Below, piece by piece: positions 11,470 through 25,126 of a stretch of 43,883 bases of DNA. Each line of letters begins with the position of its first letter. The first letter of the stretch is position 1. Position numbers and translations under genes: made by a program. Below the pieces are notes generated by a model, which saw only the letters and a program-made list of their open reading frames with translations, did no database searches and was not told the DNA's origin. This DNA comes from a virus. The stretch covers positions 1 to 43,883 of the IMG/VR virus record IMGVR_UViG_3300006917_000048, one strand, 5' to 3'.

Positions 11470-11493
11470 GGGTGAGCGGTGGGGAGCTGCGGG

Positions 11494-11503: not shown

Positions 11504-11594
11504 GTTAGCGCTGGCTGGATGGTTGCCAGGCACGTGCATCAGTGGTTATGATTCATTCAGCGGGCACAGCCTGCTATCCACCGCATCAACACCC

Positions 11595-11795: not shown

Positions 11796-12166
11796 TGGCT
11801 CTGACCAGGGCTGAATACGCCAGCATTTACAGGGCTAGGCAGCGCGGCGAGCTGCCTATGCCTACTTATTCCATTTGCGCGTCTTGTGGAGCAAAGCGGA
11901 AAGACTCCCGCGTCAACCCTCTGCATGGCGATCTATGCGCCAGGTGCTGGCGCAAGAGTCCTGACGGTAGGGACGCCGAACGAGAGCGAATCTTGCAAGT
12001 GGCTAGGCGTCGCAGCGAAGCAGAGTACGCGGCTCGCATCAAAAAAGCTGGCGAGATCCTTCAGTCCATAGGGGTAAAGCGCTTTATATCAGAGAACAGC
12101 GACGAAGCAGAGCGGTTCTACGGTTTACTTGATTCAATCCTGCAACAAGCTGAATCTAAGCGCTAA
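11795..12166 (+). CDS. Small putative zinc-binding protein
   Basis: A protein of 123 residues with two CxxC pairs (CASC, residues 28-31; CARC, 48-51), which would form a zinc ribbon, followed by a basic helical region (RDAERERILQVARRRSEAEY). It is coupled to the preceding gene by TGATG. The stop overlaps the convergent stop of the next minus gene by 3 bp. AT content rises toward the 3' end compared with neighbours. Possibly nucleic-acid binding; function not known. Confidence 0.65.
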   Translation: MALTRAEYASIYRARQRGELPMPTYSICASCGAKRKDSRVNPLHGDLCARCWRKSPDGRDAERERILQVARRRSEAEYAARIKKAGEILQSIGVKRFISENSDEAERFYGLLDSILQQAESKR

Positions 12167-13020
12167 GAAGCTTTGCGCCTGTTTCTCCGCCTGATCGCGC
12201 TGATATGGCCCTTGCTTCCCCTTGCTTGCATTCTTGCTTTTCTTGTAATTCCCGCTGCGACACTGCGGACCAATCGATCAGCATCGCGCTGCTTGTTACC
12301 AAACGCGCCAGGCGTCAGTAATTCCACTTTCTTTTTCTTGGCATCATAGTATACCTTGCTTCTATTGATGTAGTCCATCATTTCCCCGGCGGCTGAGTTG
12401 CTAAGGTGCCTTCCGCGTAGGGTCGCTGAGCTGATGTTCCCCGTCTTGTAGCGATCCGTCTTAATGCCGCCAAGCACGGAGATATTATTGAAATAGTAGC
12501 GATCATTCCCGTTCTTCTGCCAGCGCTTCCCGCCAAGCTGGCGTATTCGTGACGCAAGGATTGGCGGAGTGATTGAGCCCGCCGGTTTTTTGCCTCTGAT
12601 CTTTATCCTTGGAGTGTCCAGCATCTTGGTCACATTCTGCGGCTTTGCGCCGGCATTCACCCCCTTCCCCTTCTTCCTCCCAACCCTCACCGCTCCTTTC
12701 ATCTTCGGCAGCTTGACTGTCCCCGCCTCCTTCGCCGCCTTCAGCTTGTTCCTCGCCCTGGTCACCGCAGCCTTCTGCGCCCGCTTGCTCAGCGCTCCCT
12801 TGATGCTCTGATCGGCCGGGTCCATCGCCGCGAGCTTCCGCTTCGTGCTGGCCACGGCTCGCCGCTGGGTCACCAGCCCCTGGCGCCGCGTCGGCTTGGT
12901 CCCCTGCTTCCTCCCCCTGGCGGGTGACGCTGGTCCCGATGGCCGGCTGGCGCGACTGCCGCCAGATCCCCCGCCAGAGGCGAAGCGACCACGGGAGTCG
13001 CGTTTGTAGGTGCGGGCCAT
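12163..13020 (-). CDS. GRFASGG-family basic protein with distinct C-terminal domain
   Basis: A protein of 285 residues starting MARTYKRDSRGRFASGGG, the tag shared with genes at 13357, 19319 and 20471. A basic Lys/Arg/Ala/Pro linker follows, including RRQGLVTQRRAVASTKRKLA, close to the linkers of the 13357 and 19319 products. Residues about 145-240 form a compact domain (LGGKRWQKNGNDRYYFNN, then TLRGRHLSNSAAGEMM), and the tail is strongly basic. I do not recognise the C-terminal domain. Possible roles are DNA-binding internal virion protein or ejected effector; both are inference. Confidence 0.7.
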   Translation of the reverse strand: MARTYKRDSRGRFASGGGSGGSRASRPSGPASPARGRKQGTKPTRRQGLVTQRRAVASTKRKLAAMDPADQSIKGALSKRAQKAAVTRARNKLKAAKEAGTVKLPKMKGAVRVGRKKGKGVNAGAKPQNVTKMLDTPRIKIRGKKPAGSITPPILASRIRQLGGKRWQKNGNDRYYFNNISVLGGIKTDRYKTGNISSATLRGRHLSNSAAGEMMDYINRSKVYYDAKKKKVELLTPGAFGNKQRDADRLVRSVAAGITRKARMQARGSKGHISAIRRRNRRKAS

Positions 13021-13035
13021 CCCTGCGCATCTGCT

Positions 13036-13050
13036 GCCTCAGCTTTCCGG
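13036..13050 (-). promoter_or_regulatory. CCGGAAASCT element, copy e
   Basis: Minus-strand CCGGAAAGCTGAGGC, 20 nt before the ATG of the GRFASGG gene. It lies between two divergent genes (the other starts at 13078). Confidence 0.55.
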
Positions 13051-13077
13051 CAACCTCACCCAAACGAGACCCTTGCT

Positions 13078-13356
13078 GTGGCTGCCATCCGCCGTGGGCG
13101 CGAGACATTCGCCGGGTTCAACAAGCCCAAGCGCACCCCCAACCACCCCACGAAATCCCATGCCGTGCTGGCGCGGGAGGGTGGCACCACGAAACTGATC
13201 AGGTTTGGGCAGCAGGGCGTCAGCGGCAGCCCTGCCAGGAAGGGAGAGAGCAAGGCGGACAAGCAGCGCCGGGCCAGCTTCAAGGCCAGGCACGCGGCGA
13301 ACATCGCTAAGGGCAAACTCAGCGCCGCGTACTGGGCGAACCGGGTGAAGTGGTGA
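13078..13356 (+). CDS. Conserved phage hypothetical protein
   Basis: A protein of 92 residues from GTG 13078 (VAAIRRGRETFAGFNKPKRT). It has strong family-like patterning: N-KPKRTPNHPTKSHAV, LIRFGQQGVSGSP, then KRRASF-type basic motifs ending SAAYWANRVKW. I know this sequence style from conserved hypothetical proteins in cyanophage and other phage genomes, with no established function. It is highly basic. It is divergent from the 12163 gene and its end abuts the next minus gene. Confidence 0.75.
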   Translation: MAAIRRGRETFAGFNKPKRTPNHPTKSHAVLAREGGTTKLIRFGQQGVSGSPARKGESKADKQRRASFKARHAANIAKGKLSAAYWANRVKW

Positions 13357-14337
13357 TCAGCCCTTCGGCTTTGGCTTCCGCTTGCGCTTCGGCTTCTGCG
13401 GCCCCTGAGTGTTCCGCGGCCCGGGCTTGATCACGTTCTTTCCCTTGCCCTTGCCCTTCGGGAGCACCGGCGCCAGCTGACGGTCGTAGATCTCCATGGC
13501 GCGTGCGGCCGGCTTGCTGCCCCGTGCGGCGGCGGCTGCGGCGCGTTTGGCTCGGCCCCGGATGATCGCTCGGGCAGCCCGCCTCTCGCGCTCGGGAGCG
13601 GCCCGAACCACGCCACGCATTGCGTCGGCGACAATCCCGTGCCCGGTGGCCCTGGCCATGTCCCTGGCCGTCCGCATCGCCCACTTGCGGGTGAGCTCAT
13701 CGCCAGCCGCCTTGATCCGCTTCAGGGAATCCTTTACGTCGCGAATCTCATCGCGAATGTCGCCACTAATCCCGGCAATGCGCCCGCGCAGATAATCGAC
13801 CTTCGCCTGCCGGCCCTTGCGGGTGACAGGGGTGCGGATGATCTTGTTCGTTGCTGGCTGAGCGTTGCCGTAGCGGGCGGCATTGCGCTCCTCCTGCGCC
13901 AGGAACTGCTGCGGCGTCAGCTTGAGCTGCCGCTGGATGTGGAGCTTGGCGCTCAGCTGGCGGATGTTGTTGCTCGGCGGCTGAACAGGCGGCTTCGGCG
14001 TGCGCTGCTTGGGCCGGAGCTTGGTCGCCACCTTCAGCGCTGGGGCCTTGATCCGCCGGGTGATGGTGTCCGAGAACAGGCGGTTCTTCGCCTTGGTCAC
14101 CGCACCCTTCAAGCCACCCCGGCGCCGTGCGCTGGTGGTCTCATCCGCAGCCCTCAAGTTCGCCTTGGCCTTGGCCACCGCTCGACGCTGCGGCACCAGG
14201 CCCCTGCGCTTCGGTGGTGGCGTGCCCCGCTGCCGTGGCTTGGCCGGGGAGCTGGGGGCTGAGGCGCGACTGGGCTTACTGGAGCCCCCGCCAGAGGCGA
14301 AGCGACCACGGGCATCCCGCTTGTAAGTCCTCGCCAC
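13357..14337 (-). CDS. GRFASGG-family basic protein
   Basis: A protein of 326 residues from GTG 14337, starting MARTYKRDARGRFASGGG, followed by a basic linker with RRGLVPQRRAVAKAKANL and KGAVTKAKNRL, near-identical to the J-domain paralogue at 19319. The C-terminal two thirds are helical and Arg/Ala-rich (DIRDEIRDVKDSLKRIKAAG; RAAPERERRAARAIIRGRAK), ending KPKRKRKPKPKG. No enzyme motif seen. Composition resembles histone H1-like or packaged DNA-binding proteins; function unknown. Confidence 0.7.
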   Translation of the reverse strand: MARTYKRDARGRFASGGGSSKPSRASAPSSPAKPRQRGTPPPKRRGLVPQRRAVAKAKANLRAADETTSARRRGGLKGAVTKAKNRLFSDTITRRIKAPALKVATKLRPKQRTPKPPVQPPSNNIRQLSAKLHIQRQLKLTPQQFLAQEERNAARYGNAQPATNKIIRTPVTRKGRQAKVDYLRGRIAGISGDIRDEIRDVKDSLKRIKAAGDELTRKWAMRTARDMARATGHGIVADAMRGVVRAAPERERRAARAIIRGRAKRAAAAAARGSKPAARAMEIYDRQLAPVLPKGKGKGKNVIKPGPRNTQGPQKPKRKRKPKPKG

Positions 14338-14355
14338 AGCGCCGCATCAACCGAC

Positions 14356-14370
14356 GCCTCAGCTTTCCGA
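14356..14370 (-). promoter_or_regulatory. CCGGAAASCT element, copy f (one mismatch)
   Basis: Minus-strand TCGGAAAGCTGAGGC, 23 nt before the GTG of the 326-residue gene. The TGA inside it is the stop of the upstream gene. Confidence 0.5.
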
Positions 14371-14901
14371 TTGCCCCCGGCGGAAGTGCGCCAGCCAGAC
14401 ATCCTTGAGCCGCTGCTCCAGCGGGAACGGTTGGATCACGGGGTTCAGCTCCTGCCCCAGGACCGCCCGCGTCCAGGGTCGAGGGGGCAGGTAGACCGGC
14501 CTGGCGCCCTTCCGCGGTGGGCGGCGGCCCCAGGCCCAGATCCAAGCCCCTTCATGCACCGCCGTGGCGTAGTTGGCCGACCACGCGAAGCGAGCTTGGT
14601 AGGGGCTGGTCATACCCCAGTGGCCGGTCTGGCGCAGGTTCCCGAAGTCGATCAGGTTCCGCGGATTGCCGGCCCGCGTCCCCTCGCCGGCCCGGTAGCT
14701 TGCCAGCTTCTCCCGCAACGTGGCGCCGCTGAGCTTCCGGGTCGGCAGATCACGGGGCCAGTTCCAAGCCTTGGCGGTGAAGCTCTGCTGAAACGCGGCG
14801 AACAGCTCCCCCATCGCGGCCTTGGTCGCCGCTTGCGCCGCTGCTACGGCCTTGGCCTCCAGGTCGGCCATCTCCACCTGCACCCTGACCCGGGAGCTCA
14901 C
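14359..14901 (-). CDS. HK97 gp10-like neck/tail-completion protein
   Basis: A protein of 180 residues. It has the layout of the HK97 gp10 / minor tail Z family: N-terminal helix (LEAKAVAAAQAATKAAMGEL), central NLIDFGNLRQTGHWG and FAWSANYATAVHEG, then PPRPWTRAVLGQELNPVI. In that family the middle H-E-G segment and the (P)xRPW(F) segment are conserved. Role: joining head and tail. It overlaps the preceding gene by 4 bp. Confidence 0.75.
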   Translation of the reverse strand: MSSRVRVQVEMADLEAKAVAAAQAATKAAMGELFAAFQQSFTAKAWNWPRDLPTRKLSGATLREKLASYRAGEGTRAGNPRNLIDFGNLRQTGHWGMTSPYQARFAWSANYATAVHEGAWIWAWGRRPPRKGARPVYLPPRPWTRAVLGQELNPVIQPFPLEQRLKDVWLAHFRRGQSES

Positions 14902-15374
14902 GCCGGCACCTCAAAAGCAACGGCGATGGCATCGCCCAGGTTCTGGCGCAGTTCGTCGCCGATGCCGCCGACCCCGAAGGCGCCGAACAGCTCCGAGATC
15001 GTGGCCTGGCCGAGCATCCCGCCAGAGGATCGGGTGGGGAGGTTCTCAAGCTTCCCGAGGAACGCGCGGGCCTTCACTCCGGGCAGCAGCCCATCAGGCG
15101 CCAGGCCTGTGGTGTTCCAGCTGAACGCCGATTGCGCTGCCAGCCAATTCACGCCGCTCGGCACCGTTGCCCACTGGGTGATGAAGCCCGATCGACTGCC
15201 GCTGGTGGCCTTGACGCTGGGCAACGCCTGGGGTGCCCCCACCTGCCCCTTCAGGAACACCTCGATCACGATCGGAGCGCCAGCTGCTGGCACGCCATCG
15301 CGGAAGCTGGTCACTACCCCCGGCGGTGTCCACACCATGCGGAGGTTGGCGTAGGGGGCGAAGTCGGTAGCCAT
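14898..15374 (-). CDS. Putative head-tail connector region protein
   Basis: A protein of 158 residues, MATDFAPYANLRMVWTPPGV, beta-rich with a helical end. It sits immediately before the gp10-like gene with an ATGA overlap, a position usually taken by small neck or head-closure proteins. I see no decisive family motif. The ATG is 6 nt after a CCGGAAACCT element; an in-frame Met at residue 13 would give the more usual spacing. Confidence 0.5.
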   Translation of the reverse strand: MATDFAPYANLRMVWTPPGVVTSFRDGVPAAGAPIVIEVFLKGQVGAPQALPSVKATSGSRSGFITQWATVPSGVNWLAAQSAFSWNTTGLAPDGLLPGVKARAFLGKLENLPTRSSGGMLGQATISELFGAFGVGGIGDELRQNLGDAIAVAFEVPA

Positions 15375-15380
15375 GCCCTG

Positions 15381-15390
15381 AGGTTTCCGG
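15381..15390 (-). promoter_or_regulatory. CCGGAAASCT element, copy g
   Basis: Minus-strand CCGGAAACCT just upstream of the connector-region gene. Confidence 0.5.
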
Positions 15391-15406
15391 GCTGGTTTCG
15401 CTCAAG

Positions 15407-15432
15407 CAAAAGCCCCGGCGGTGGGCCGGGGC
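15407..15432 (-). terminator. Intrinsic terminator, copy 1
   Basis: Minus-strand GCCCCGGC-CCACC-GCCGGGGC followed by TTTTG, 22 bp after the stop of the 58-residue gene. Identical hairpins recur at 15706 and 16175. Confidence 0.75.
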
Positions 15433-15454
15433 GGAGGGGTGGTTGCTGCAGCCT

Positions 15455-15631
15455 TCAGGCCGCTTTCCCGTAGATCCTGATCATCAGGAGCTTGCGGGCG
15501 TCAATGGGGCAAGCCAGGGCGGTCTTTTCGATTTCCTTGGGCCAGTAGGCGTTGTCGTCTGCGCAGTAGCTTTCGATGGTTTCGGTGTAAACGGAGCCGA
15601 TGCGTTCGGCATAGGCGAGGTTGTTGGCCAT
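15455..15631 (-). CDS. Small accessory protein
   Basis: A protein of 58 residues, MANNLAYAERIGSVYTETIE, with protein-like composition. I chose ATG 15631 because it aligns with the starts of two neighbouring cassettes that share the leader (hairpin, then CCACCCA, then start); an upstream ATG lies inside the -10 region. It forms a one-gene transcription unit with its own promoter, hairpin leader and terminator. Function unknown. Confidence 0.65.
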   Translation of the reverse strand: MANNLAYAERIGSVYTETIESYCADDNAYWPKEIEKTALACPIDARKLLMIRIYGKAA

Positions 15632-15648
15632 GGGTGGTTCGTGGGTGG

Positions 15649-15700
15649 CGGAAGGTCTCCCTTCCGATGAACCAACCATAACACACGGTTGCCGGAAATG
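15649..15700 (-). promoter_or_regulatory. Promoter and 5' GAGA-hairpin leader, cassette 1
   Basis: The -10 TATGGT (15680-15675) lies in the shared string TGTGTTATGGTTGG; the -35 is weak. Eight nt downstream is a perfect 7-bp stem, CGGAAGG-GAGA-CCTTCCG (15666-15649), with a GNRA tetraloop, then GCCACCCA and the start codon. The stem would be at the very 5' end of the transcript. Confidence 0.65.
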
Positions 15701-15728
15701 AAAAAGCCCCGGCGGTGGGCCGGGGCGG
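15667..15728. repeat. 62-bp perfect repeat, copy A
   Basis: Identical to 16136-16197. It contains a complete minus-strand terminator for one cassette followed by the promoter core of the next. Confidence 0.85.
15701..15726 (-). terminator. Intrinsic terminator, copy 2
   Basis: Minus-strand GCCCCGGC-CCACC-GCCGGGGC then TTTTT, 5 bp after the stop of the 123-residue zinc protein gene. Confidence 0.8.
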
Positions 15729-15730
15729 GA

Positions 15731-16102
15731 TCAGATGGTCACCCCAAGGGCGCGATCCTGAAGCCACTGAGAGAAGCTGCCGTGAACGCCATGGCCGCCG
15801 GTTTGGTGGTAGTTGGTCAGCTGGGTTTTCAGGACTGGGTTGGCGTGATCATCGGCCTGCCAGGCAGCAAGCGCCTCTGCATTGGCTGCCATCTTGATTA
15901 GGCGCCTTTGGCGGCGGGCCTCTTCCGCAAACACTTCTTGGCGGATCTGCTTGTCGGTCTTGCCGCTATTCCGTGCGGCACAGGTCCGGCCGTAATGAAG
16001 GATCCCTCCGTTACTGAGCCGCATGGCGACCGTGGCTTTTAGCTCGGAGCGACCGCAGCAGTCGCAGGTGTCGATTTCGTCTGTGATGTAGAGAGCTTTC
16101 AT
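15731..16102 (-). CDS. Small zinc-binding accessory protein
   Basis: A protein of 123 residues, MKALYITDEIDTCDCCGRSE. It has the pattern CxCCGRxxLKATVAMRL, YGRTCAARN, a cysteine arrangement frequent in short phage and bacterial proteins of unknown role, which probably binds zinc. A helical region (KQIRQEVFAEEARRQRRLIK) follows. It is a single-gene unit with hairpin leader and terminator, framed by the two 62-bp repeats. Function unknown. Confidence 0.7.
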   Translation of the reverse strand: MKALYITDEIDTCDCCGRSELKATVAMRLSNGGILHYGRTCAARNSGKTDKQIRQEVFAEEARRQRRLIKMAANAEALAAWQADDHANPVLKTQLTNYHQTGGHGVHGSFSQWLQDRALGVTI

Positions 16103-16118
16103 GGTTCCGATGGGTGGC

Positions 16119-16169
16119 GCAGGGTCTCCCCTGCAATGAACCAACCATAACACACGGTTGCCGGAAATG
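16119..16169 (-). promoter_or_regulatory. Promoter and 5' GAGA-hairpin leader, cassette 2
   Basis: The -10 TATGGT (16149-16144), then 9 nt, then GCAGGG-GAGA-CCCTGC (16134-16119), then GCCACCCATCGGAACC and the ATG at 16102. Stem sequence differs from cassette 1 but pairing is kept. Confidence 0.7.
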
Positions 16170-16197
16170 AAAAAGCCCCGGCGGTGGGCCGGGGCGG
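16136..16197. repeat. 62-bp perfect repeat, copy B
   Basis: Second copy of the terminator-promoter junction at 15667-15728. Confidence 0.85.
16170..16195 (-). terminator. Intrinsic terminator, copy 3
   Basis: Same hairpin as copies 1 and 2 with TTTTT, 22 bp after the stop of the 72-residue gene. Confidence 0.8.
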
Positions 16198-16216
16198 AAT
16201 AATGAGGCCAGCAAGA

Positions 16217-16435
16217 TCAGGGCTTGCGATAGCCCTTTGTTTTAAGATTGGCGTAATAACTGCGTGCATCGCCAATCCAGTTATATCCGCCTTCGTAAAG
16301 CTTCCAGCCGCTATCAATAGCTTTGTAATGCTGCATCATTATTTGATGATTCCCAGCATCCGTAAAGCAAACAATATGCTTGCCGCTTGGGGCCATCAGC
16401 AGATGGCCGGCAATCTCAGTCTGAGCAGTGATCAT
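16217..16435 (-). CDS. Small accessory protein
   Basis: A protein of 72 residues, MITAQTEIAGHLLMAPSGKH, ending YYANLKTKGYRKP. More AT-rich than its neighbours, suggesting recent acquisition. Start chosen by alignment with the leaders of the other two cassettes (GGAACC-ATG). Own promoter, hairpin leader and terminator. Function unknown. Confidence 0.65.
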   Translation of the reverse strand: MITAQTEIAGHLLMAPSGKHIVCFTDAGNHQIMMQHYKAIDSGWKLYEGGYNWIGDARSYYANLKTKGYRKP

Positions 16436-16451
16436 GGTTCCGTTGGGTGGT

Positions 16452-16488
16452 GCAGGGTCTCCCCTGCGTTGACCCAACCCTAACACAC
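16452..16488 (-). promoter_or_regulatory. Promoter and 5' GAGA-hairpin leader, cassette 3
   Basis: The -10 TAGGGT (16482-16477) in TGTGTTAGGGTTGGG, then 9 nt, then GCAGGG-GAGA-CCCTGC (16467-16452), then ACCACCCAACGGAACC-ATG. Confidence 0.65.
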
Positions 16489-16491
16489 GAT

Positions 16492-16695
16492 TCACCCCTT
16501 GGCGCCATCCCGCTGCTTCCGCTGCTTCCGCTGCCATCGGGCCTGCCGATCAGCTCGGTAGGCCCGCCCCTCCGGCGCCAGCCGCTCCCAACACCTGGGG
16601 CACAGCAGCTCTGACCGCGTGCCCTTGTGGCGGGCCTGGCAGGTGGTGCAGATAAGGGCGCAGCCGTAGGGGGCCTGGGGGATGGGGTCAGGCAT
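16492..16695 (-). CDS. Small zinc-ribbon protein
   Basis: A protein of 67 residues starting MPDPIPQAPYGCALICTTCQ. Cysteines CTTC (17-20) and CPRC (32-35) would form a zinc ribbon; a very basic end (RADRQARWQRKQRKQRDG) suggests nucleic-acid binding. Its start ATGCCTGACCC overlaps the stop (TGA) of the upstream gene by 8 bp. Confidence 0.6.
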   Translation of the reverse strand: MPDPIPQAPYGCALICTTCQARHKGTRSELLCPRCWERLAPEGRAYRADRQARWQRKQRKQRDGAKG

Positions 16696-16882
16696 TGCGG
16701 TCCCTAATCGCCTTCAGGCCTGCCGCCACCTGCCGCAGGCGAGCCCGCTGCTCGGGATCGAGCATGGCTTGCTGGAATGTCGCGACGATCGTGTCGGCCA
16801 TCTTCTGGAAGGTGGCGCCGATCAAACGAATCGCCTGGATCTGCTCAGGGGTTGGGATGGCCTGGGGGATTGGGTCAGGCAT
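16688..16882 (-). CDS. Small helical hypothetical protein
   Basis: A protein of 64 residues, MPDPIPQAIPTPEQIQAIRL, with a long predicted helix (EQRARLRQVAAGLKAIRDRN). The first eight residues and their DNA (24 bp, one mismatch) duplicate those of the next gene. The start overlaps the stop of the upstream gene in the same ATGCCTGACCC arrangement. Function unknown. Confidence 0.6.
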   Translation of the reverse strand: MPDPIPQAIPTPEQIQAIRLIGATFQKMADTIVATFQQAMLDPEQRARLRQVAAGLKAIRDRNA

Positions 16883-17144
16883 CGGCCTGCTCCTGGCCAA
16901 CCTGGATCGCGTCAACCAGCGCGAAAAACTTAGCCCGGATTCTATAGCGCTCGTCTTGCCGGACTATCTCAGATTCAGGCCCCTTGGCTAAGATTGGCTC
17001 ATCCGGCACAATCACATGGATGGCGGCTCGGATAGCAGCCAAACGATCGCCATTGACACCTGGACGTATTTCACCAAAGGTGCTCATACTTCTGAGCACA
17101 GAATCGTAGGAGGCGCGAAGCTCACCAGGGGTGGGGATGGTCAT
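16875..17144 (-). CDS. Small hypothetical protein
   Basis: A protein of 89 residues, MTIPTPGELRASYDSVLRSM, with regular composition and a helical end (YRIRAKFFALVDAIQ). First of three overlapping genes (with 16688 and 16492). Leader is C-rich (CAACCCATCCCACCGCA) with no Shine-Dalgarno. Function unknown. Confidence 0.6.
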   Translation of the reverse strand: MTIPTPGELRASYDSVLRSMSTFGEIRPGVNGDRLAAIRAAIHVIVPDEPILAKGPESEIVRQDERYRIRAKFFALVDAIQVGQEQADA

Positions 17145-17179
17145 GGCGTGTTGCTGCGGTGGGATGGGTTGCGGGTGGG

Positions 17180-17341
17180 TCAGGCGGCGGTCGGCCCCTG
17201 TGGGTAGAAGTCGCGGCCGTTGCAGGTTGCCGCCAGGAGTCGAGCTGCGGCGGCTTGCAGGGCCTCGGAGAGAGCCTGGTATTCGGCCCTGAGGGTTTCA
17301 GCCCCAGTGCCGTTGATGTGAATTGTTGGCAGGGTCGTCAT
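17180..17341 (-). CDS. Small conserved-looking protein (53 residues)
   Basis: An open frame of 53 codons: MTTLPTIHINGTGAETLRAE, a helix (EYQALSEALQAAAARLLAAT), then NGRDFYPQG near the end. The pattern I-x-x-NGTG-xx-L and NGRDFYPQG is one I recognise from short phage and bacterial hypothetical proteins without assigned function. It fills the space between two minus-strand genes. Its stop is followed by a C-rich stretch leading into the next gene. Confidence 0.65.
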   Translation of the reverse strand: MTTLPTIHINGTGAETLRAEYQALSEALQAAAARLLAATCNGRDFYPQGPTAA

Positions 17342-17377
17342 GCAAGGGGTGCGGCGGGGTGAGTCGGCGAATGGGCT

Positions 17378-17647
17378 TCAACGGGCCAGAAGGTTGGCGG
17401 GTACAATCCGCAGATTATGGTCATGCTTCCAACCGTGGACCCTTTCGCAACTGGATAGCAACCGTTCGGCTTCTTCTCTTGACACAGGCTTTGGTGGGTT
17501 GTCCATACCAAGAAAGACAGGCCTGTGTCTTAACTGAGGCACGCTATGCCATGTAACATACGCATCGCGGGGAAAATCGCTTTGTAGGTTTTTACCCATA
17601 GTGTGCATGCCCCTAGGCTCTTGCAGTGTTGCCAGAACGTAAAACAT
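17378..17647 (-). CDS. Small hypothetical protein
   Basis: A protein of 89 residues, MFYVLATLQEPRGMHTMGKN, with DAYVTWHSVPQLRHRPVFLG and a C-terminal helix (SREEAERLLSSCERVHGWKH). Good protein-like composition; AT-richer than the neighbouring virion genes. Preceded by copy 1 of a repeated hairpin element. Not recognised. Confidence 0.6.
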   Translation of the reverse strand: MFYVLATLQEPRGMHTMGKNLQSDFPRDAYVTWHSVPQLRHRPVFLGMDNPPKPVSREEAERLLSSCERVHGWKHDHNLRIVPANLLAR

Positions 17648-17656
17648 TGATCACAA

Positions 17657-17698
17657 TGCGGTGGAATGGTTGCCGGATAGGCTCCGGCGGGCCGGGAG
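17657..17698 (-). repeat. Intergenic GCCGGA-N5-TCCGGC hairpin repeat, copy 1
   Basis: Contains a perfect 6-bp inverted repeat (17672-17688) and on the minus strand ends in CAACCATTCCACCGCA before the downstream gene. Near-identical to the copies at 18058 and 18301. Confidence 0.7.
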
Positions 17699-17704
17699 AT
17701 GGAA

Positions 17705-18040
17705 TCAGTTAAAAATCGCTCCTTCCCTGCCAAAGGTAACACTAATCCGGTTTTTATTTGCAATATCACAAGCTTCCGCCAATGCGCTTTTGACATACAC
17801 GCCAAAAGCGCTCATACCAGGGCTAATTTCAATGTTTCTTATTTGATCGGGAAGCGCAACAAAACAGGACCATCCTTCACCAAACAAGCGAATAAGCTCC
17901 CTAGGGTTATCCCTAGATTGATCGGCGTTTTGCCAGAGTGTGATTACTTTTTCGAACAGCTCCTTATCTTTTTGATCTTGGAAGCAAATCAGCCTCTGCG
18001 TGATCATGAGTGAGCTGTATGCGGGGTTGATCCAGTTCAT
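17705..18040 (-). CDS. Hypothetical protein
   Basis: A protein of 111 residues, MNWINPAYSSLMITQRLICF, with LFEKVITLWQNADQ and WSCFVALPDQIRNIEISPG. It is markedly more AT-rich than the tail genes. Repeat copy 2 lies upstream and copy 1 downstream. The N-terminal half and general style faintly resemble the plus-strand gene at 21719 (LLSLKQSPKFW, VYLAIDPIVD). Function unknown. Confidence 0.6.
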   Translation of the reverse strand: MNWINPAYSSLMITQRLICFQDQKDKELFEKVITLWQNADQSRDNPRELIRLFGEGWSCFVALPDQIRNIEISPGMSAFGVYVKSALAEACDIANKNRISVTFGREGAIFN

Positions 18041-18057
18041 GGTGACGTGAGCTTGGG

Positions 18058-18101
18058 GGTGCGGTGGAATGGTTGCCGGACAGGCTCCGGCGGGCCGGGG
18101 G
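18058..18101 (-). repeat. Intergenic GCCGGA-N5-TCCGGC hairpin repeat, copy 2
   Basis: Hairpin at 18075-18091; the loop differs from copy 1 (caggc against taggc on the plus strand). Confidence 0.7.
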
Positions 18102-18106
18102 TGGGG

Positions 18107-18292
18107 TCAGGCGTCAACAACACCAGCGGCGGCGTTGATTACACGCCACTGCTCTGGCCAGGTACCGGCGGTGCGATTGCAAGACGACCACCACCAGCGA
18201 GCGGCGGAGCGGCGGTAGCGGCGGGGTGCAGTTGGCCACCAGGCGGCGACTTGGGCGGCCCTGCGGGTGGCGCGGGCGGATGCGGGAAGCAT
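18107..18292 (-). CDS. Small Trp/Arg-rich protein
   Basis: A protein of 61 residues, MLPASARATRRAAQVAAWWP, with WWWSSCNRTAGTWPEQW. Rich in Arg, Ala and Trp. Reading frame is clean between two repeat copies and starts after the same kind of C-rich leader (CCACCGCACCC-ATG). Function unknown; GC-rich composition makes it less certain than its neighbours. Confidence 0.5.
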   Translation of the reverse strand: MLPASARATRRAAQVAAWWPTAPRRYRRSAARWWWSSCNRTAGTWPEQWRVINAAAGVVDA

Positions 18293-18300
18293 GGGTGCGG

Positions 18301-18343
18301 TGGGCGTGGGGTGGGTGCCGGATGGGCTCCGGCGGGCCGGGGG
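18301..18343 (-). repeat. Intergenic GCCGGA-N5-TCCGGC hairpin repeat, copy 3
   Basis: Hairpin at 18317-18333, loop tgggc on the plus strand. Flanks diverge more than between copies 1 and 2. Confidence 0.6.
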
Positions 18344-18364
18344 ATGGCTTCTGTGGATTGCGCC

Positions 18365-18553
18365 TCAAGCCGCATGGAGATCATCAAAGATTTGGACCTC
18401 GGGCCGATATGGATAGTGAGACATCAGGGCCAGCTCCTTTTGCAGCCTGATGCGGCCCTCGGTTTTGTCTTTGGCGAAGAAGGACCGCAGGATGTCAGCG
18501 GGACCCGTGGTATTGGGGCGGCGGATGATGACGTGGAAGCGAGCGGCGGGCAT
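18365..18553 (-). CDS. Small hypothetical protein
   Basis: A protein of 62 residues, MPAARFHVIIRRPNTTGPAD, with ILRSFFAKDKTEGRIRLQKE. Normal composition. It has a hairpin leader of the GNRA type and a strong promoter overlapped by a TTGCGCAA-like operator, so it is probably regulated with the phage's early/late switch. Function unknown. Confidence 0.6.
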   Translation of the reverse strand: MPAARFHVIIRRPNTTGPADILRSFFAKDKTEGRIRLQKELALMSHYPYRPEVQIFDDLHAA

Positions 18554-18571
18554 GGCTTGGTCGTGGGTGGT

Positions 18572-18658
18572 CGGGGTCGTCTCCGCCCCGTTAAATCAAC
18601 CCTAACACATGGTTGCACGATGCGCAACCATCACCCCCGCTGTTCACATTGCGCAATG
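18572..18658 (-). promoter_or_regulatory. Promoter, twin operators and 5' hairpin leader
   Basis: Minus-strand TTGCGC (18627-18622), 17-bp spacer, TAGGGT (18604-18599), then 8 nt and a hairpin CGGGGCG-GAGA-CGACCCCG with one bulged A (18590-18572). Operators: GGTTGCACGATGCGCAACC (18611-18629) over the -35, and the perfect palindrome CATTGCGCAATG (18647-18658). Confidence 0.7.
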
Positions 18659-18767
18659 GGACGCCCGGCCTTCGATACCGTTTCAAGCTGGCCCCAACGA
18701 AAACCAGCCACGGCTCCCCCCTTGCGGATGATGGGCCGACCGGACGCTGGGGGCAGGGTAGCCCCCC

Positions 18768-19283
18768 TCAGCTCCTGACCAGAGTCATCCCCCCGCCAGT
18801 AGGGGAGGCAGGCTCCAGGCCCAGGGTCTGCAGGATCCTCCCCCGGAGCTGGGCGATTCGCGCGGCCAGCACCCCGCCAGCGGTGGAGTCAGCACGGCCG
18901 CCGGACTCGAACTTCACCTGTAGGAGGCTGGTGTCCCACTCCAGAACATCAGCCTTGCGCTTGATGTCGTCCCGGGTGAGCGTGGTTCCCGGCATTGGCC
19001 CCTGGTAGCTCTGCACATTGCCCAGGTGTGCCGTGCCATCGCTCACCTGATCCGCCCAGGTCAGCTCCAGCTCTTCCGCCTCATCGATCCAGGCCTGCAC
19101 CTTCCGCACCGTGGCGGGGCTGGTGTCGGCCGCCCGGTTCATCGCCACGGTGAGCTGGATCAGGTTGTGATTCGCGATCGGCCAGCCCAGGTAGCCCCGG
19201 ATCAGTTCGCGGTCCTCAACGTCGCTGTCGTCGTTGGGTCGCCATAGGGCGTTGAGCTCGGGGACCGGGGATAGAAGAGGCAT
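18768..19283 (-). CDS. Virion-module hypothetical protein
   Basis: A protein of 171 residues, MPLLSPVPELNALWRPNDDS, acidic and helical (TVRKVQAWIDEAEELELTWA), ending GGGMTLVRS. Placed between the MuF/portal block and the neck genes, where head-completion or connector proteins are normal. No diagnostic motif seen. A degenerate element (CCGGCAACCTCCACC) precedes it. Confidence 0.5.
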   Translation of the reverse strand: MPLLSPVPELNALWRPNDDSDVEDRELIRGYLGWPIANHNLIQLTVAMNRAADTSPATVRKVQAWIDEAEELELTWADQVSDGTAHLGNVQSYQGPMPGTTLTRDDIKRKADVLEWDTSLLQVKFESGGRADSTAGGVLAARIAQLRGRILQTLGLEPASPTGGGMTLVRS

Positions 19284-19318
19284 CGGTGGGGTGGGGCTGG
19301 TGGAGGTTGCCGGGAGGG

Positions 19319-20407
19319 TCAGGAGCGCTTGCGGCGAGGTTTGCGGCGGGGCTTGGGCGCCGCTCCCTTCGCCGCCGGCAACAGCAACGGCCCACGGGGC
19401 TTGGCCGGAGCCCCCGCTTTCGCCTTGCCGCCCTTGGCACCCTTGGCGGGTTTCGGCTTCGGGAGCTGAGCAAGCAGGCTGTCGCGCATCTGGGTCAGCC
19501 GGGCCAGATCCTTGGCGCGGCCGCCTGCATCTGGGTGGGCCCGCTTGGCGAGCTTGCGATAGGCCTGATTGATCTCGTCGCGGCTGGCACCGGGCTGCAG
19601 GCCGAACACGTACCGAACACGGTCGTTTTTGTGGATGTCGATCCCACGGAAGACGCCAGGGCCGTCCTTGCGGTTGCGCTCGGACTGCGGCACGCCGATG
19701 TTGTTTCTGTAAATCCGCTCCCAGTCGCTGCGGGTGCGTGGTTGGCGACCCATGGCAACGCCATTGGGGCCATTGCCGGTGACGCCGGCTACAAGGGCAT
19801 ACATCATTTCGAAGTCTTTCTTGCTCCTGACACCCCGCTCTCGCGCGTGCTTGCGCACTGCAGACCTCAGCTCAGCCATGCTCATCGTCTCCACTGCCTT
19901 GCCGTCCTGGAATCGCTCCCCGGCCACGGTGCCGCGGCGCTGAACCGTGGCCTTGATCCGCCGGGCCTTCTCGGATCTGGTGGGCTTCACGGGAGGCTTC
20001 ACTGGAGCTGGCGCAGGCTTGCCGGTCTTACCCCGCTTGAATGCCACATCGAGGCGCTTGAGCTTCACCCTGCCGGTCTTCGTCGCTTCGCGCAGCTTGT
20101 TCCGAGCCTTGGTCACCGCACCCTTGCGGGCCCCCTTGGATCGCGTGCTTGCCGTGGTGTCAGCCTCAGCTGCAGCGAGCTTGGCCTTGGCCGCCGATAC
20201 CGCCCGCCGCTGCGGCACGAGACCGCGGCGCTTGGGTGGCGGTGATCCCTTGCGCCTGGCGGGCACCGAGGGCATGGAGGCTGCCGAAGGCTTGGCCGGG
20301 CCCACAGCCTTCGCGGCCTTCGCGGTCTTGGCCTTGCCGCCGCCAGAGCGAACCGTCCCACCAGAGGCGAAGCGTCCGCTGTTGTCTCGCTTGTAAGTGC
20401 GGGCCAT
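19319..20407 (-). CDS. GRFASGG-family protein with J-domain
   Basis: A protein of 362 residues. Residues 1-17 are the tag MARTYKRDNSGRFASGG; 60-120 is the basic linker shared with the 13357 product (RRGLVPQRRAVSAAKAKL, KGAVTKARNKL). Residues about 266-316 read as a J-domain: FGLQPGASRDEINQAYRKLA with K-R-A-HPD at 289-293, then DLARLTQMRDSLL. The HPD tripeptide is what stimulates Hsp70/DnaK ATPase in J-proteins. The C-terminus is Lys/Arg/Pro-rich. Inferred role: recruits host DnaK for virion assembly, or after ejection. It occupies a slot where scaffold or capsid genes are usual. Confidence 0.75.
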   Translation of the reverse strand: MARTYKRDNSGRFASGGTVRSGGGKAKTAKAAKAVGPAKPSAASMPSVPARRKGSPPPKRRGLVPQRRAVSAAKAKLAAAEADTTASTRSKGARKGAVTKARNKLREATKTGRVKLKRLDVAFKRGKTGKPAPAPVKPPVKPTRSEKARRIKATVQRRGTVAGERFQDGKAVETMSMAELRSAVRKHARERGVRSKKDFEMMYALVAGVTGNGPNGVAMGRQPRTRSDWERIYRNNIGVPQSERNRKDGPGVFRGIDIHKNDRVRYVFGLQPGASRDEINQAYRKLAKRAHPDAGGRAKDLARLTQMRDSLLAQLPKPKPAKGAKGGKAKAGAPAKPRGPLLLPAAKGAAPKPRRKPRRKRS

Positions 20408-20427
20408 TCACCATGCGCCTGGTATCG

Positions 20428-20445
20428 CAGTTTTCCGGAAAACTG
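20428..20445. promoter_or_regulatory. Perfect 18-bp palindrome between divergent GRFASGG genes
   Basis: CAGTTTTCCGGAAAACTG contains the CCGGAAAnCT core in both orientations, 21 nt from the minus ATG and 26 nt from the plus ATG, exactly where single copies sit at other genes. Confidence 0.75.
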
Positions 20446-20470
20446 AGGCATTCGATGCAACCCCCTCCCT

Positions 20471-20929
20471 ATGGCCGCCCGCACCTACAAGCGCGATGCA
20501 AACGGTCGCTTTGCCGGGGGAGGTGGCGGTAGCAGTGGCAAGGGTCGCGGCGGAGCGAAGCCAGTCAAAGCGGCCAAGGCGAGCAAGCCGGCCAAGGCGA
20601 GCAAGGGCCGCCCCAAGGGCGCCAGCGGCGGTAAGACCGGCGGCAGCGTGAAGCAGAAGAAGGCAGCAGCTGAACAGGCCGCGCGGTCTGCGCAGTTCAA
20701 GGGCAAGGCGCCCGTCAGCAAGGCAAAGGCTGCTTACAAGGCGGCAAAGTCGAAGATGCGCGAGATCGCCATGCTTGCAGGTGGCAACCCCAGCGCCAAG
20801 GGCGTGAAGGGCCGGACGGATGCCTACGCTCAACGCAAGCGGGAGCAAGCGAAGGCTTATTCCGCCGCGAAGGCACGGGTGAAGCAGCTGGAGAAAACGC
20901 GAGGCGCGAAGGGCAGGAAGAAGCGCTGA
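20471..20929 (+). CDS. GRFASGG-family small basic protein
   Basis: A protein of 152 residues, MAARTYKRDANGRFAGGGGG, then Lys/Ala/Gly-rich sequence throughout (KAAKASKPAKASKGRPKG; KAAYKAAKSKMREIAMLAGG) ending in KGRKKR. Composition is like histone H1 or mycobacterial-type nucleoid tails. It shares only the tag with its three paralogues and lies divergent from the J-domain member. Likely DNA-binding; function inferred from charge. Confidence 0.7.
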   Translation: MAARTYKRDANGRFAGGGGGSSGKGRGGAKPVKAAKASKPAKASKGRPKGASGGKTGGSVKQKKAAAEQAARSAQFKGKAPVSKAKAAYKAAKSKMREIAMLAGGNPSAKGVKGRTDAYAQRKREQAKAYSAAKARVKQLEKTRGAKGRKKR

Positions 20930-21718: not shown

Positions 21719-22258
21719 ATGTCACCAAAGCCGTTTCACGTCATCCACATCACATCGGAGAGCGCAAAGATCCAACGAAATCCAGAATACAAAGAAAACC
21801 TCTATGAACTTTTAGATTCTGGTGTAGAGTGCCCGTTGATAATCAGAAACTCGCCTATTGATCAAAAATTTCTCGATCAACTACTTTCCCTTAAGCAAAG
21901 CCCTAAGTTCTGGAAGGCAAACTGGGAGGAGGGCTCTCCTGTCTACGCATATCTTAAGGACGGATGGAATCGCTTCACTGGGCGCGATACGTCTTGCAAG
22001 CAAAACTGTGTCTACCTAGCAATAGACCCCATAGTCGATATTCTCCTTAAGCTTCACTACGGCAACGAGTTATGGATGGCTGAAGCCGAACTCAGAAAAG
22101 AAGCAAAACTAGCAAACGAGGCAACCACTGAACTCGAAACAGCAAAAACCCGCATCGCAGAGCTCGAAGCCGATCTAGCGGCAGCGCTGCGAAGCCTGAG
22201 GATGCTGGGGCAGGGCGATGATCACTCAAACAACGGCACCGATTCCCCTAGCGACTGA
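21719..22258 (+). CDS. Hypothetical protein with C-terminal coiled coil
   Basis: A protein of 179 residues, MSPKPFHVIHITSESAKIQR. The first 120 residues are AT-rich in codon use and probably globular; 120-165 is an obvious coiled coil (KEAKLANEATTELETAKTRI). It overlaps the end of the convergent MuF-like gene by 37 bp. Base composition contrasts with both neighbours, a sign of recent transfer. Function unknown. Confidence 0.65.
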   Translation: MSPKPFHVIHITSESAKIQRNPEYKENLYELLDSGVECPLIIRNSPIDQKFLDQLLSLKQSPKFWKANWEEGSPVYAYLKDGWNRFTGRDTSCKQNCVYLAIDPIVDILLKLHYGNELWMAEAELRKEAKLANEATTELETAKTRIAELEADLAAALRSLRMLGQGDDHSNNGTDSPSD

Positions 22259-23415
22259 GTCCGCCCCGGGAACAGGCGCCGTTCTGATGCGGTAGGGGTG
22301 CGCAAGGCCCGCGCCAGCTCCATTCTGGCCTTCACTATGTCCGGCCCGCGTTCCTGCAGCTTCAGGATCTTGGCGTCCATCGCGTCGATGAGATCGGGAT
22401 CCCTGAGTCGGTCGCGTTGGCGCTGCAGGCCATCAAGCCGCGCCTTGTGCTGGCCTTCGGCGTAGGCCTCAACGCCCCGCTCGTGCTCTGCCTGCCAGCG
22501 TTCGGAGTCGAGCAGCACGCCGCGCAGGGCTTTGTCGCGCTCTTGCACCGCTTCGTCGGCAGCGGGCACCACCACGCACCGGCAGCGAGGATGCCAGGGC
22601 ACCGGAACCCGATCAATCGGGTAGATCCTGCCGTTCCGGCTGGCGCACGTCGGGCAGACCCGTTCATCGTTGCTCGCCAGGACCCGGGCATAGCTGTAGC
22701 CCTGTTCGCGGGAGCGCATCAGGGTGCCTTGGGTGTAGGCATTGGCCAGCTCCGACCGGGCGATGATCGCGGCCCGTTGCTCCAGCCCCAGCCGCTGGGT
22801 GATGCCGTTCGGATCCTTGGCGCCGCGCAGGGCCCGCCTGATCTGGGTTTCCAGCCGGCTGGCCCCCCATCCCCGCGTTGCACCCTCACCCACGATGTTC
22901 ACCAGGGCATCGCGGAATCGGGCTGTTTCGCCCTGGATCAGGGCCGAGGTCGTCAGCGCCGCGGCGCGGATCGCGAAGGGGTCGGCGCCGGTGAAGGGAA
23001 CATCCTCCTCGGGGCGTCGCACCATGGCCACCAGCTGGGCGCCAAGGTTCCCGCCAAGGCGGGCGGCTTCCTTCAGATCCTGCTCATAGCGGGCGGCCCA
23101 CTGCTGCAGCTCGGCCTCCCCGAAGAAGCCTTGAGCGTCCTGGAGGATCGCTCGAAACTTCGCGGTGGTCTCCGCTGCTGAGTAGGCCCCGGGCCGCCGG
23201 ATGGCATTGCGGTTGGGGTCGTAACCCTGGGGGCCGAGCGCGTCAATGTATTGGCTGTAGTGGCGCCGCAGGTCAAATAAAACCCGTTGCATCGACCGGC
23301 GGATCAATGCAACGGTGTTTTTTGTGGCGCGTTTCTCCAGCTCATCCAGGGCCTTGGCGAAGTCATCGACGACGCCAACGATTCGCCTCGGCTCTGGCAG
23401 CTGGGGGTCAGCCAT
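22222..23415 (-). CDS. MuF-like minor head protein
   Basis: A protein of 397 residues. A helical N-terminal half leads to the SPP1 gp7 / Mu gpF module at about 170-285 (GATRGWGASRLETQIRRALR, then IARSELANAYTQG) with the metal-site signature C254, C257, H275, C278, C280 (WHPRCRC). This family binds the portal and DNA and helps head assembly; some members are ejected. It follows the portal gene after one small gene, as usual. Confidence 0.85.
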   Translation of the reverse strand: MADPQLPEPRRIVGVVDDFAKALDELEKRATKNTVALIRRSMQRVLFDLRRHYSQYIDALGPQGYDPNRNAIRRPGAYSAAETTAKFRAILQDAQGFFGEAELQQWAARYEQDLKEAARLGGNLGAQLVAMVRRPEEDVPFTGADPFAIRAAALTTSALIQGETARFRDALVNIVGEGATRGWGASRLETQIRRALRGAKDPNGITQRLGLEQRAAIIARSELANAYTQGTLMRSREQGYSYARVLASNDERVCPTCASRNGRIYPIDRVPVPWHPRCRCVVVPAADEAVQERDKALRGVLLDSERWQAEHERGVEAYAEGQHKARLDGLQRQRDRLRDPDLIDAMDAKILKLQERGPDIVKARMELARALRTPTASERRLFPGRTQSLGESVPLFE

Positions 23416-23662: not shown

Positions 23663-25126
23663 TTAGCTTTCCGGAGGGAGGCCTCCATCTGCATTCACGT
23701 CCGGCATGTCAGCCGGCGGCGGCTCCTCGTCCTGGATCCGCTGCAGCTCGTCCTCCGCCGTGGTGTTTAGGCGCAGGCGGCCACGGCGCATCAGCTCCTC
23801 AATCGCCGACTGCCTGCTCAGCAGGGTGGCCCCGCCGGTCAGCTTCTGGATTTCGTCGGTGTCGGCTGCCGTCATCGGTGGCTCGAACAGCGTCGCGCTC
23901 ATCTGAATGCCAGCATCAGGCGACAAGGTTTCGCCGGTGAACATGCACCAGAGCTTCATCAGGCTCTGCACCATCGACGCCTTCTGCTGAGCCACGCTTT
24001 CCACCGTGGCTTCGGTCTGAGCCCCCTCCAGACCGGCCTGTGTGGCTGTTTTGGTGGCGCCAGGGTCGCCATAGAGGAAGCCAAGGGTTTGGCGGCTGAT
24101 CAGCTTCTCCACCTCAGCGATCTGCGCGCGTTGCTCAGCCAGGCTGCTGGCCGATGGCTCGGCGAAATTAAAGGATCCGCCGGGTTGAAGCTCCACGACG
24201 CTGTTGGGCCCCAGCACCAGCTGACGCGGCGGCTCGCCAGGGGCGGGCGGTGTCAGGCCCATGGCCACCGGCACCGGCATCGCGCACTTGTGGGTCTTCT
24301 CCCGAAGGTCTGAACGCTGCTGAAAGTGCTCGATGGAGTGCTCCACAACCTGGCGCAGCAGCATGGCGCCATTGCCGAACAGGTCTCCATCTGGCGAGTA
24401 CCAGATGACTGGCGCTACAGCCAGCGGCTCACCGCCGGGGCCGAGATAGGAGCCCTGGTCATCGGGATCTGGGACGGCTTCCAGGTTGCTGCCAACTCGC
24501 TTGATTTCGTAGACCTGCCAGCCCTCGCGAGTGATCACGCGATACCGAGGCTCGGTCTTCACACCGAAAGGGGGATCCCTGACTTCCTTGAGTTCCAGGA
24601 TCGTCACCTGATCCAAGGTCTCAACCCCGTTCACGATCGTGGTAAACCAGTTCAACACCCTGGCCCGTTCGCGCAGGATCAGGTAGGGCCTGATACCGTC
24701 GGCGATCTCTGCAGCTCTGTTGACCGCTTGATTCTGTGGCATGTCCACCTGAATCACCACAGCGCCATCGCGCAGGGCGTAGGTGTCGGCCTTGATCAGC
24801 GCTGCGGCAAGGCTGTTGCCGGCCCGATCAATGTTGTTCTGCGCGTCCAGCATCGTTTGTGGTGCGTCCACAAGTTCGTACTTGGACAGCACACCAGCAA
24901 ATGCCGTGATCGACCCCCTGAAAAAGTCAGCGAAGACGGAGCGATCCAAGCGGGATTTATAGGCTTCAGGTGGCTCCTTTGATTCCTGCGGCAGGTATCT
25001 CTCCTTCACCCCTCGCATCATGTTGAATGCGTCGTAGGCGCGTTGCAAATCGCCTGCAACCTCACGCAACACCGGATGCTGATAGCTCGGCAGCTTGGGA
25101 TCATCTATTGGGTGCTGAAGCTCCAC
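23663..25126 (-). CDS. Portal protein (DUF4055-like)
   Basis: A protein of 487 residues from GTG 25126. Typical portal architecture of the DUF4055 type: N-terminal YDAFNMMRGVKERYLPQESK, a clip/wing region (LDQVTILELKEVRDPPFGVK), a stem helix part with GGSFNFAEPSASSLAEQRAQ and QTLGFLYGDPGATKTATQAG, and an acidic/Pro-rich end. Forms the dodecameric DNA gate at the head vertex. The CCGGAAAGC-TAA at its 3' end is itself the regulatory element for the next gene. Confidence 0.85.
   Translation of the reverse strand: MELQHPIDDPKLPSYQHPVLREVAGDLQRAYDAFNMMRGVKERYLPQESKEPPEAYKSRLDRSVFADFFRGSITAFAGVLSKYELVDAPQTMLDAQNNIDRAGNSLAAALIKADTYALRDGAVVIQVDMPQNQAVNRAAEIADGIRPYLILRERARVLNWFTTIVNGVETLDQVTILELKEVRDPPFGVKTEPRYRVITREGWQVYEIKRVGSNLEAVPDPDDQGSYLGPGGEPLAVAPVIWYSPDGDLFGNGAMLLRQVVEHSIEHFQQRSDLREKTHKCAMPVPVAMGLTPPAPGEPPRQLVLGPNSVVELQPGGSFNFAEPSASSLAEQRAQIAEVEKLISRQTLGFLYGDPGATKTATQAGLEGAQTEATVESVAQQKASMVQSLMKLWCMFTGETLSPDAGIQMSATLFEPPMTAADTDEIQKLTGGATLLSRQSAIEELMRRGRLRLNTTAEDELQRIQDEEPPPADMPDVNADGGLPPES
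23665..23674 (-). promoter_or_regulatory. CCGGAAASCT element, copy i
   Basis: Overlaps the last codons and stop of the portal gene (CCG GAA AGC TAA), 22 nt before the acidic-protein ATG. Confidence 0.5.

Follow-up and report, generated by a model that had tools for sequence, protein, structure and literature searches.

A short N-terminal tag on basic proteins with different C-terminal modules, encoded among the head genes of an uncultured phage

Tagged proteins of the window

IMG/VR virus record IMGVR_UViG_3300006917_000048, analysed over its whole length of 43,883 bases and hereafter called the window, carries four genes whose products share a short N-terminal peptide, the tag, and differ in their C-terminal parts, the cargo (Table 1). 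The preliminary description of this DNA had listed four genes with a start of the form MA(A)RTYKRDxxGRFAxGG; all four open reading frames (ORFs) were confirmed at their positions, and the start takes the form M/V-A(A)-RTYKRDxxGRFAxGG. The back-translated tag core R-x-YKRD had exactly four matches in the window and none in the reversed control, and the four proteins scored 37.5-42.9 bits against a profile of the tag. All of them are strongly basic, with an isoelectric point (pI) of 11.6-12.0 and a net charge of +38 to +70; the median pI was 12.0 for 123 tagged proteins vs 6.4 for 20 untagged window proteins that we chose for comparison. The linker common to three of the proteins had also been recognised, but its extent was underestimated, as it does not end with RRxGLVxQRRAV and continues through KGAVTKARNKL over about 50-65 amino acids (module N2). 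The J-domain proposed for the third protein (P0003) matched the Pfam model PF00226 above the cut-off of that model (E 7.8e-7), and the HPD motif is invariant in three relatives, so that P0003 combines the PF00226 match and the HPD motif by which a J-domain protein is recognised.

Table 1. Positions of the tagged genes, their parts and selected neighbouring features in the window.
Feature	Position	Strand	Remark
Tagged protein 1 (P0001, 285 aa)	12163..13020	-	Tag + N2 + cargo A
Tag of protein 1	12967..13020	-	MARTYKRDSRGRFASGGG
Linker N2 of protein 1	12694..12885	-	RQGLVTQRRAV...KLPKMKG; approximate boundaries
Cargo A	12223..12579	-	Compact domain GGxRWQKNGxDRxYFNN; predicted alpha/beta, mean pLDDT (predicted local distance difference test) 92
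Upstream element, protein 1	13036..13049	-	
Tagged protein 2 (P0002, 326 aa)	13357..14337	-	Tag + N2 + cargo B; GTG start, V/MARTYKRD
Tag of protein 2	14284..14337	-	VARTYKRDARGRFASGGG
Linker N2 of protein 2	14068..14208	-	RRGLVPQRRAV...KGAVTKAKNRL; approximate boundaries
Cargo B	13360..13689	-	Arg/Ala-rich region, NVIKPGPRN...RKRKPK basic tail
Upstream element, protein 2	14356..14369	-	
Tagged protein 3 (P0003, 362 aa)	19319..20407	-	Tag + N2 + cargo C
Tag of protein 3	20354..20407	-	MARTYKRDNSGRFASGGT
Linker N2 of protein 3	20048..20230	-	Approximate boundaries
Cargo C	19466..19933	-	J-domain with HPD motif and preceding ~100 aa
Upstream element, protein 3	20424..20437	-	Overlaps that of protein 4
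Tagged protein 4 (P0004, 152 aa)	20471..20929	+	Tag + cargo H; strand opposite to the other three
Tag of protein 4	20471..20527	+	MAARTYKRDANGRFAGGGG
Cargo H	20705..20926	+	Lys/Ala-rich basic tail (KAKAAYK...GGNPSAKG); approximate boundaries
Upstream element, protein 4	20436..20449	+	
MuF head protein, short (397 aa)	22222..23415	-	Context; PHROGs/Pfam
Portal (DUF4055)	23663..25126	-	Context; PHROGs/Pfam; element upstream
Phage sigma-factor-like gene	26805..27656	-	Adjoins terminase; conserved in lineage

Occurrence, modular structure and genomic position of the tag

An exact DNA-pattern scan located the tag in at least 118 stretches of viral contigs. A stricter pattern, which also fits 91 of these at least 118 stretches among the matches listed, was found at only two loci in 84,980 bacterial and archaeal genomes. 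One of them lies on a contig of a cyanobacterial metagenome-assembled genome (MAG) that also encodes a portal relative, and the other on a Frankia contig (L199:9003-9779), where ARTYKRDARGRFA is followed by a HEAAH region. In the collections scanned the tag thus appears nearly confined to phage contigs, and not to lie mainly in non-phage housekeeping proteins, the outcome that the preliminary description had named as contrary to its proposal of a tag for capsid loading or ejection; that proposal was not refuted on this point. Reversing the longer pattern YKRDxxGRFA as a control gave no match in any of 81 further records. A start codon (ATG or GTG) lies within 12 codons upstream in 96 of the 106 distinct tag matches, a set in which about ten frames are long or doubtful. 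Searching with the tag profile yielded 91 tagged ORFs in 46 records, which were assembled from pieces and of which about ten are partial (first 20,000 or 40,000 bases) and two, G001 and G073, nearly duplicate the window; tagged ORFs scored at least 15.1 bits, the next matches reached at most 8.5, and two or more tagged ORFs were present in 24 of the 46 records.

The alignment of 78 tagged proteins (the four of the window and 74 of 80 references, six near-copies or fragments being excluded; two further tagged ORFs had no reference) showed residues Y5, R7, D8, G11, R12 and F13 to be invariant at a mean column identity of 10%, an invariance to which the search pattern itself contributes. At six conserved residues, 204 of 390 codon comparisons within a genome (52%) showed synonymous differences, which indicates conservation at the level of the peptide and not of the DNA and disfavours a DNA repeat as the nature of the tag.

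We defined three linkers (N1, N2 and N3) and 16 cargo modules in a set of 101 distinct tagged proteins (<93% similar), where they occur in 33 arrangements, including incomplete ones. Linker N1 (NRLTRDNAGRITSVGGxGATARGGRL) can match the tag itself, and the counts of combinations were corrected accordingly. Five modules were found with more than one type of linker, namely B and E behind all three, A and F behind N1 or N2, and C behind N2 or N3. Two or more cargo families occur in 18 records, in three of which (G011, G056 and G070) both listed modules lie within one protein. The slot of P0002 illustrates such exchange in the related record G002, where the neighbours are kept (92% identity, window 14285-15442) and the tagged gene encodes the tag, N2 and cargo F, followed by an untagged ORF of 234 codons (TTG start) that encodes the end of cargo B. 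Public domain collections recognise little of this cargo. Pfam matched DnaJ in three of the 78 tagged proteins and, doubtfully, ATG16 in one, leaving a credible domain only in three; neither MuF (PF04233, at E 0.01) nor a portal domain was found in any of the 78, nor were LPD or PolyVal models. Matches to PHROGs comprised families of unknown function in three proteins, one peptidase and single weak hits, and an HExxH domain is among the cargo modules of the family.

The structure predicted for cargo A is confident (pLDDT 92) and had no match in the PDB at E 0.001 or better (best second-look Z 4.3), while four viral models matched at this threshold, none of known function; the missing structure match does not by itself make this predicted fold a new one. 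Relatives of cargo A lack the motif in 17 of 23 inspected loci (23 of 26 loci), where they are small phage proteins or are fused to a helix-turn-helix (HTH) domain. The model of cargo C is of moderate quality (pLDDT 75, predicted template modelling score 0.47), and its fold matches are mostly J-domain chains, none of which reaches E 0.001. In four regions of other phages, J-domain genes had no clear link to head genes: three have neighbours that function in replication or recombination or are unassigned, including one named putative protease/scaffold protein, and the fourth (Polewnik) between helicase-side genes and lysozyme-like and tip-attachment genes on the opposite strand. Cargo D, searched without the tag in the query, was preceded by RDxxGRF in 14 of 18 inspected ORFs (18 of 25 loci), mostly in YARD or YVRD forms that the tag pattern would miss; the query itself came from tagged proteins, one of the 18 ORFs belongs to its own record and several are near-alike. 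Relatives of cargo D also occur in fusions, with an XkdF-type head protease (PF14550, E 1e-14) and with the C-terminus of MuF (E 0.011, below the Pfam cut-off, with a CQC motif by our reading).

Tagged genes cluster with the head genes. In 28 records of at least 18 kb with a detected portal, G001 and G073 being excluded, 48 of 57 tagged genes are found no more than 6 kb from the portal gene, compared with a mean of 20.3 and a maximum of 34 over 5000 random draws, figures that serve as a guide and not as a probability because genes of one record are not independent; 56 of the 57 lie within 12 kb. Where both ends were found, all 23 tagged genes fall inside the span from terminase or portal to tape measure, against 11.7 expected by length. 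In G018, portal and MuF are followed by a tagged gene, a scaffold-like gene and the major head protein, the latter of phrog_247 (E 2e-83). The major head protein in the lineage of the window is of another type, as seen in G001, a longer record that is 99.997% identical to the window over 32,630 bases and encodes a major head gene of phrog_212 (E 4e-64) and a scaffold gene of phrog_206 (E 2e-12). No major capsid protein was recognised among the scanned window proteins, and a tagged protein in this role was rejected, since G001 carries the head and scaffold genes to the left of the window start. These two genes (L135:10041-10964 and 11049-11867) lie downstream of tail genes and not beside MuF, which is an unusual order.

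An upstream element, also cited as CGGAAANCTGAGGCA and in its strict form as GGAAANCTN[AC][GA], precedes all four tagged genes of the window, as noted previously, and lies 28-34 nt before their starts, but it does not single them out, since late genes in general have it. Elements resembling CGGAAANCTNAGGCA occur at 10 sites in the window, 13-34 nt before starts (e.g., 25157(-), 23672(-), 15388(-), 8910(-) and 445(-)), against 0.4 expected from 20 mononucleotide shuffles, and they also stand upstream of the portal gene and of 23421-23642, 14898-15374, 8463-8897 and 1-414. The dinucleotide control was weaker, with 13 matches at up to two mismatches vs a mean of 4.5 (1 of 100 shuffles reached 13), and a 9-base core with one mismatch was not enriched in the window (10 vs 7.2; 24 of 100 dinucleotide shuffles). 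Within the lineage of the window (16 records), the strict element was found upstream of 37 of 50 tagged genes, or 31 of 44 once the near-copies G001 and G073 are removed, and also upstream of portal, connector, chaperone-like, tail and tape-measure genes. Overall, it was present in 32 of 84 distinct upstream regions, in 31 of them at 27-36 nt before the start. A tag-specific signal was rejected because portal, tail and other structural genes are also preceded by the element, which appears from its distribution to be a late-gene signal of this lineage. The sigma-factor-like gene next to the terminase gene is possibly its reader; in the isolate phage P-SS2, ORF003, which adjoins terL, is described as a group 3 sigma factor likely serving a particular regulon (PMC2784084).

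Other window proteins assigned with PHROGs and Pfam include terminase, tail protein, tape measure, primase, helicase and KilA-N. The window also encodes an AbrB-like protein (PF14250) of a family that we take to be typical of cyanobacteria, its closest portals are those of Synechococcus and Prochlorococcus phages, and a tagged relative is present in the MAG of an uncultured cyanobacterium; together these suggest that the host of this phage is probably a cyanobacterium. Two overlapping frames, 10232-11062(-) and 10750-11469(-), are by our reading a candidate pair of tail assembly chaperones with a possible frameshift. In the region 15400-18700, a series of small ORFs includes segments that recur (e.g., 15635-15728 vs 16102-16197, 92.7% alike) around GC-rich inverted repeats noticed by eye.

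The RDxxGRFA motif and known delivery systems

The core of the tag is not limited to free N-termini: elsewhere RDxxGRFA forms the joint between a portal, MuF or prohead protease part and effector domains. The form HPRDxxGRFA occurred in 68 stretches of viral contigs, mostly within longer ORFs, and from 58 rows of these, 51 proteins were given to Pfam (seven were set aside for short length, a frame judged wrong, truncation or duplication). Head domains were recognised as MuF in four proteins, two portal models in three each and prohead protease S78 in one, and other proteins matched PBECR1, LPD3, Zeta (2) and three models of ADP-ribosylation type; most of the 51 had no head domain by this test. 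In one record of 25,623 bases (L223/L225), five ORFs carry an HPRDxxGRFAE joint ahead of differing C-termini, which is the same logic in another phage.

Isolate phages offer a comparison for the head region. P-SS2 resembles the tagged phages in its related portal, in the sigma-factor gene adjoining terL and in a MuF gene within the same cluster. It differs in that the effector is in cis, ORF030 (L339:17522-22021) being a MuF protein of 1499 amino acids with a Zeta domain (E 9.8e-22), and in that the tag was not found in the 31-kb region examined. This protein was identified in virions by mass spectrometry, with 96.5 peptides on average (PMC2784084); the same source labels it major capsid protein, and our domain search identified a MuF-Zeta fusion. 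Similarly, MED4-184 encodes a MuF protein of 761 amino acids with a C-terminal HExxH region by our reading. In 37 of 38 tagged records, by comparison, MuF ORFs have at most 441 codons from stop to stop, some of them cut by record ends. The contrast between cis and trans arrangements is not absolute, since the isolates KBS-S-2A and S-H1 have a short MuF with neither tag nor long extension, and small basic proteins in the same slot. A small ORF of the window, 13078-13356(+), encodes a product that by eye resembles the head-slot genes of these two isolates (FNKPKRTPNHPTKSHAVLA) and has no Pfam match.

The arrangement of the tagged family recalls several known systems. In phage T4, the capsid-targeting sequence (CTS) of internal proteins is cut off by the prohead protease. 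The T4 internal proteins are diverse and have in common only this conserved N-terminal segment, and foreign proteins fused to it are packaged (PMC3012670). The tagged family likewise has a conserved N-terminal segment on otherwise unrelated proteins, a likeness in arrangement; unlike in the T4 account, it has modular linkers and cargo, its core motif also occurs at portal and MuF joints, and its packaging is a prediction. Polymorphic MuF toxins and fusions of effectors to MuF or portal proteins are similar in having variable C-terminal cargo on a constant N-terminal part among head genes, and some of these fusions carry RDxxGRFA, as the tagged family does. Unlike them, the tagged proteins have a constant part of only about 15 residues, with no MuF or portal domain. 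Polyvalent proteins join zincin-like peptidases to other domains, are encoded among late genes and are thought to be delivered with the DNA (PMC5512222). The tagged family resembles them in its peptidase-type and other cargo domains among late genes, and differs in that its members are mostly short, have one recognised cargo module and match no LPD or PolyVal model. By analogy, the tagged family would follow the logic of the T4 capsid-targeted internal proteins and of the MuF effectors. Searches of Pfam, PHROGs and open-access literature did not turn up this family of tagged proteins, its linkers or an arrangement in trans, and neither literal tag strings nor spellings of the motif occurred in the literature searched.

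Proposed head delivery and alternative explanations

Taken together, these observations suggest that the tag is an N-terminal address for late basic proteins that are put into the phage head and probably ejected with the DNA, a trans form of the delivery of MuF effectors; we give this reading a probability of roughly 0.55. After late expression, a tag of the form Y-x-R-D-x-x-G-R-F-A/S followed by glycines would attach its protein, near the portal/MuF vertex of the assembling head, either to a head component or to DNA, the basic linkers would keep it with the packaged DNA, and it would leave the head together with the DNA. Cargo would be swapped behind the tag, partly via interchangeable linkers, so that effector domains fused by other phages to MuF or portal are placed on separate proteins and reach the same place in trans. 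In the host, the J-domain may act on Hsp70, HExxH domains may carry out processing, and cargo may bind DNA. The whole series, from late co-expression through head docking, packaging and ejection to the action of the cargo, is what we infer from sequence. Portal or MuF would be a better candidate receptor than the capsid lattice, because the phrog_212 and phrog_247 lineages share the tag and related portals. The proposal of a capsid-loading or ejection tag made in the preliminary description fits the position among head genes, the late element, the interchangeable cargo, the RDxxGRFA joints and the virion MuF protein of P-SS2, although a processing site or spacer could also explain the motif. 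More tentatively, RDxxGRF[A/S] could be a general, phage-wide signal for address or release of virion cargo, comparable to a signal peptide, that is either fused to portal, MuF or protease or free at the N-terminus, with effectors exchanged as cassettes; we see this extension as possible rather than probable.

Several observations weigh against a head address. In fusions, an address is already supplied by the portal or MuF part, which leaves processing or spacing as possible uses of the motif. The small P-SS2 virion proteins encoded right after MuF (detected in virions, PMC2784084) are acidic and untagged, and ORFs 031-033 were rejected as equivalents of the tagged proteins for their acidity. 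Modularity is incomplete, since 11 of the 16 cargo modules have one linker type at most and 29 of the 101 proteins have no definable cargo module, 16 of these also lacking a linker. Mean similarity of tags was 64.3 within the same genome (57 pairs; a value reached by 4 of 2000 shuffles), 66.2 for the same cargo in another genome (201) and 59.5 for other pairs (4692); similarity thus tracks genome and cargo family alike, the test does not discriminate in favour of a tag that follows the genome rather than the cargo, and co-evolution with a single receptor is not clearly indicated. The tag was absent from six annotated isolate regions of 19-31 kb each, and in the phage collection four tagged queries had no match, some of which a low-complexity filter may hide, and a fifth, P0003, matched J-domains only. 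Among 24 records with the major head protein of the G018 type, moreover, the element was found only in G057, at one of two tagged genes, and is thus largely lineage-specific.

The strong basicity of the family (pI near 12, net charge of about +0.2 per residue) and its place among the head genes would also be expected of late assembly or nucleoid factors that are not packaged, that is, basic proteins that bind DNA or RNA, contact nucleic acid or scaffold with the N-terminus and deliver nothing, and a J-domain could aid assembly. Nevertheless, a pure nucleoid role explains the charge and not the diversity of cargo swapped behind one tag, which includes HExxH, a J-domain and compact domain A, otherwise found in small or HTH-fused phage proteins, and we regard this explanation as unlikely. 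Equally doubtful to us is that RDxxGRF is a processing or separator site instead of an address, at which a peptidase of phage or host origin, conceivably the HExxH members of the family, releases cargo from head proteins or trims an N-terminal leader. This would account better than an address for the internal joints, given that at least 29 residues precede the motif in 52 of the 58 HPRDxxGRFA rows (mechanical start) and that it shares proteins with head or effector domains. It would also suit the second related copy (RDNxGRI/K) in 22 of the 78 tagged proteins, mostly about 30 residues on, the two or more copies in 7 of the 51 HPRD proteins (loose pattern) and the HExxH cargo within the family; yet the motif is kept even in free N-termini, where it follows the initial Met by a few residues and has nothing to separate. 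Simple paralogy, with a conserved 5' end of element and tag serving only expression and recombination of 3' ends, would suit the untagged cargo ORF left by the slot swap between the window and G002, but the synonymous codon differences between tags of one genome and the retention of the same peptide in records with other upstream sequences make it improbable.

If the tag does load phage heads, as the address reading holds, MuF-type delivery can operate in trans, and the retention of several unrelated basic proteins among the head genes would be explained. It could also offer a possible route for putting chosen proteins into cyanophage particles. Moreover, a sequence of about 15 residues would then provide a handle for listing which proteins uncultured phages deliver, a cargo that Pfam and PHROGs at present hardly detect.

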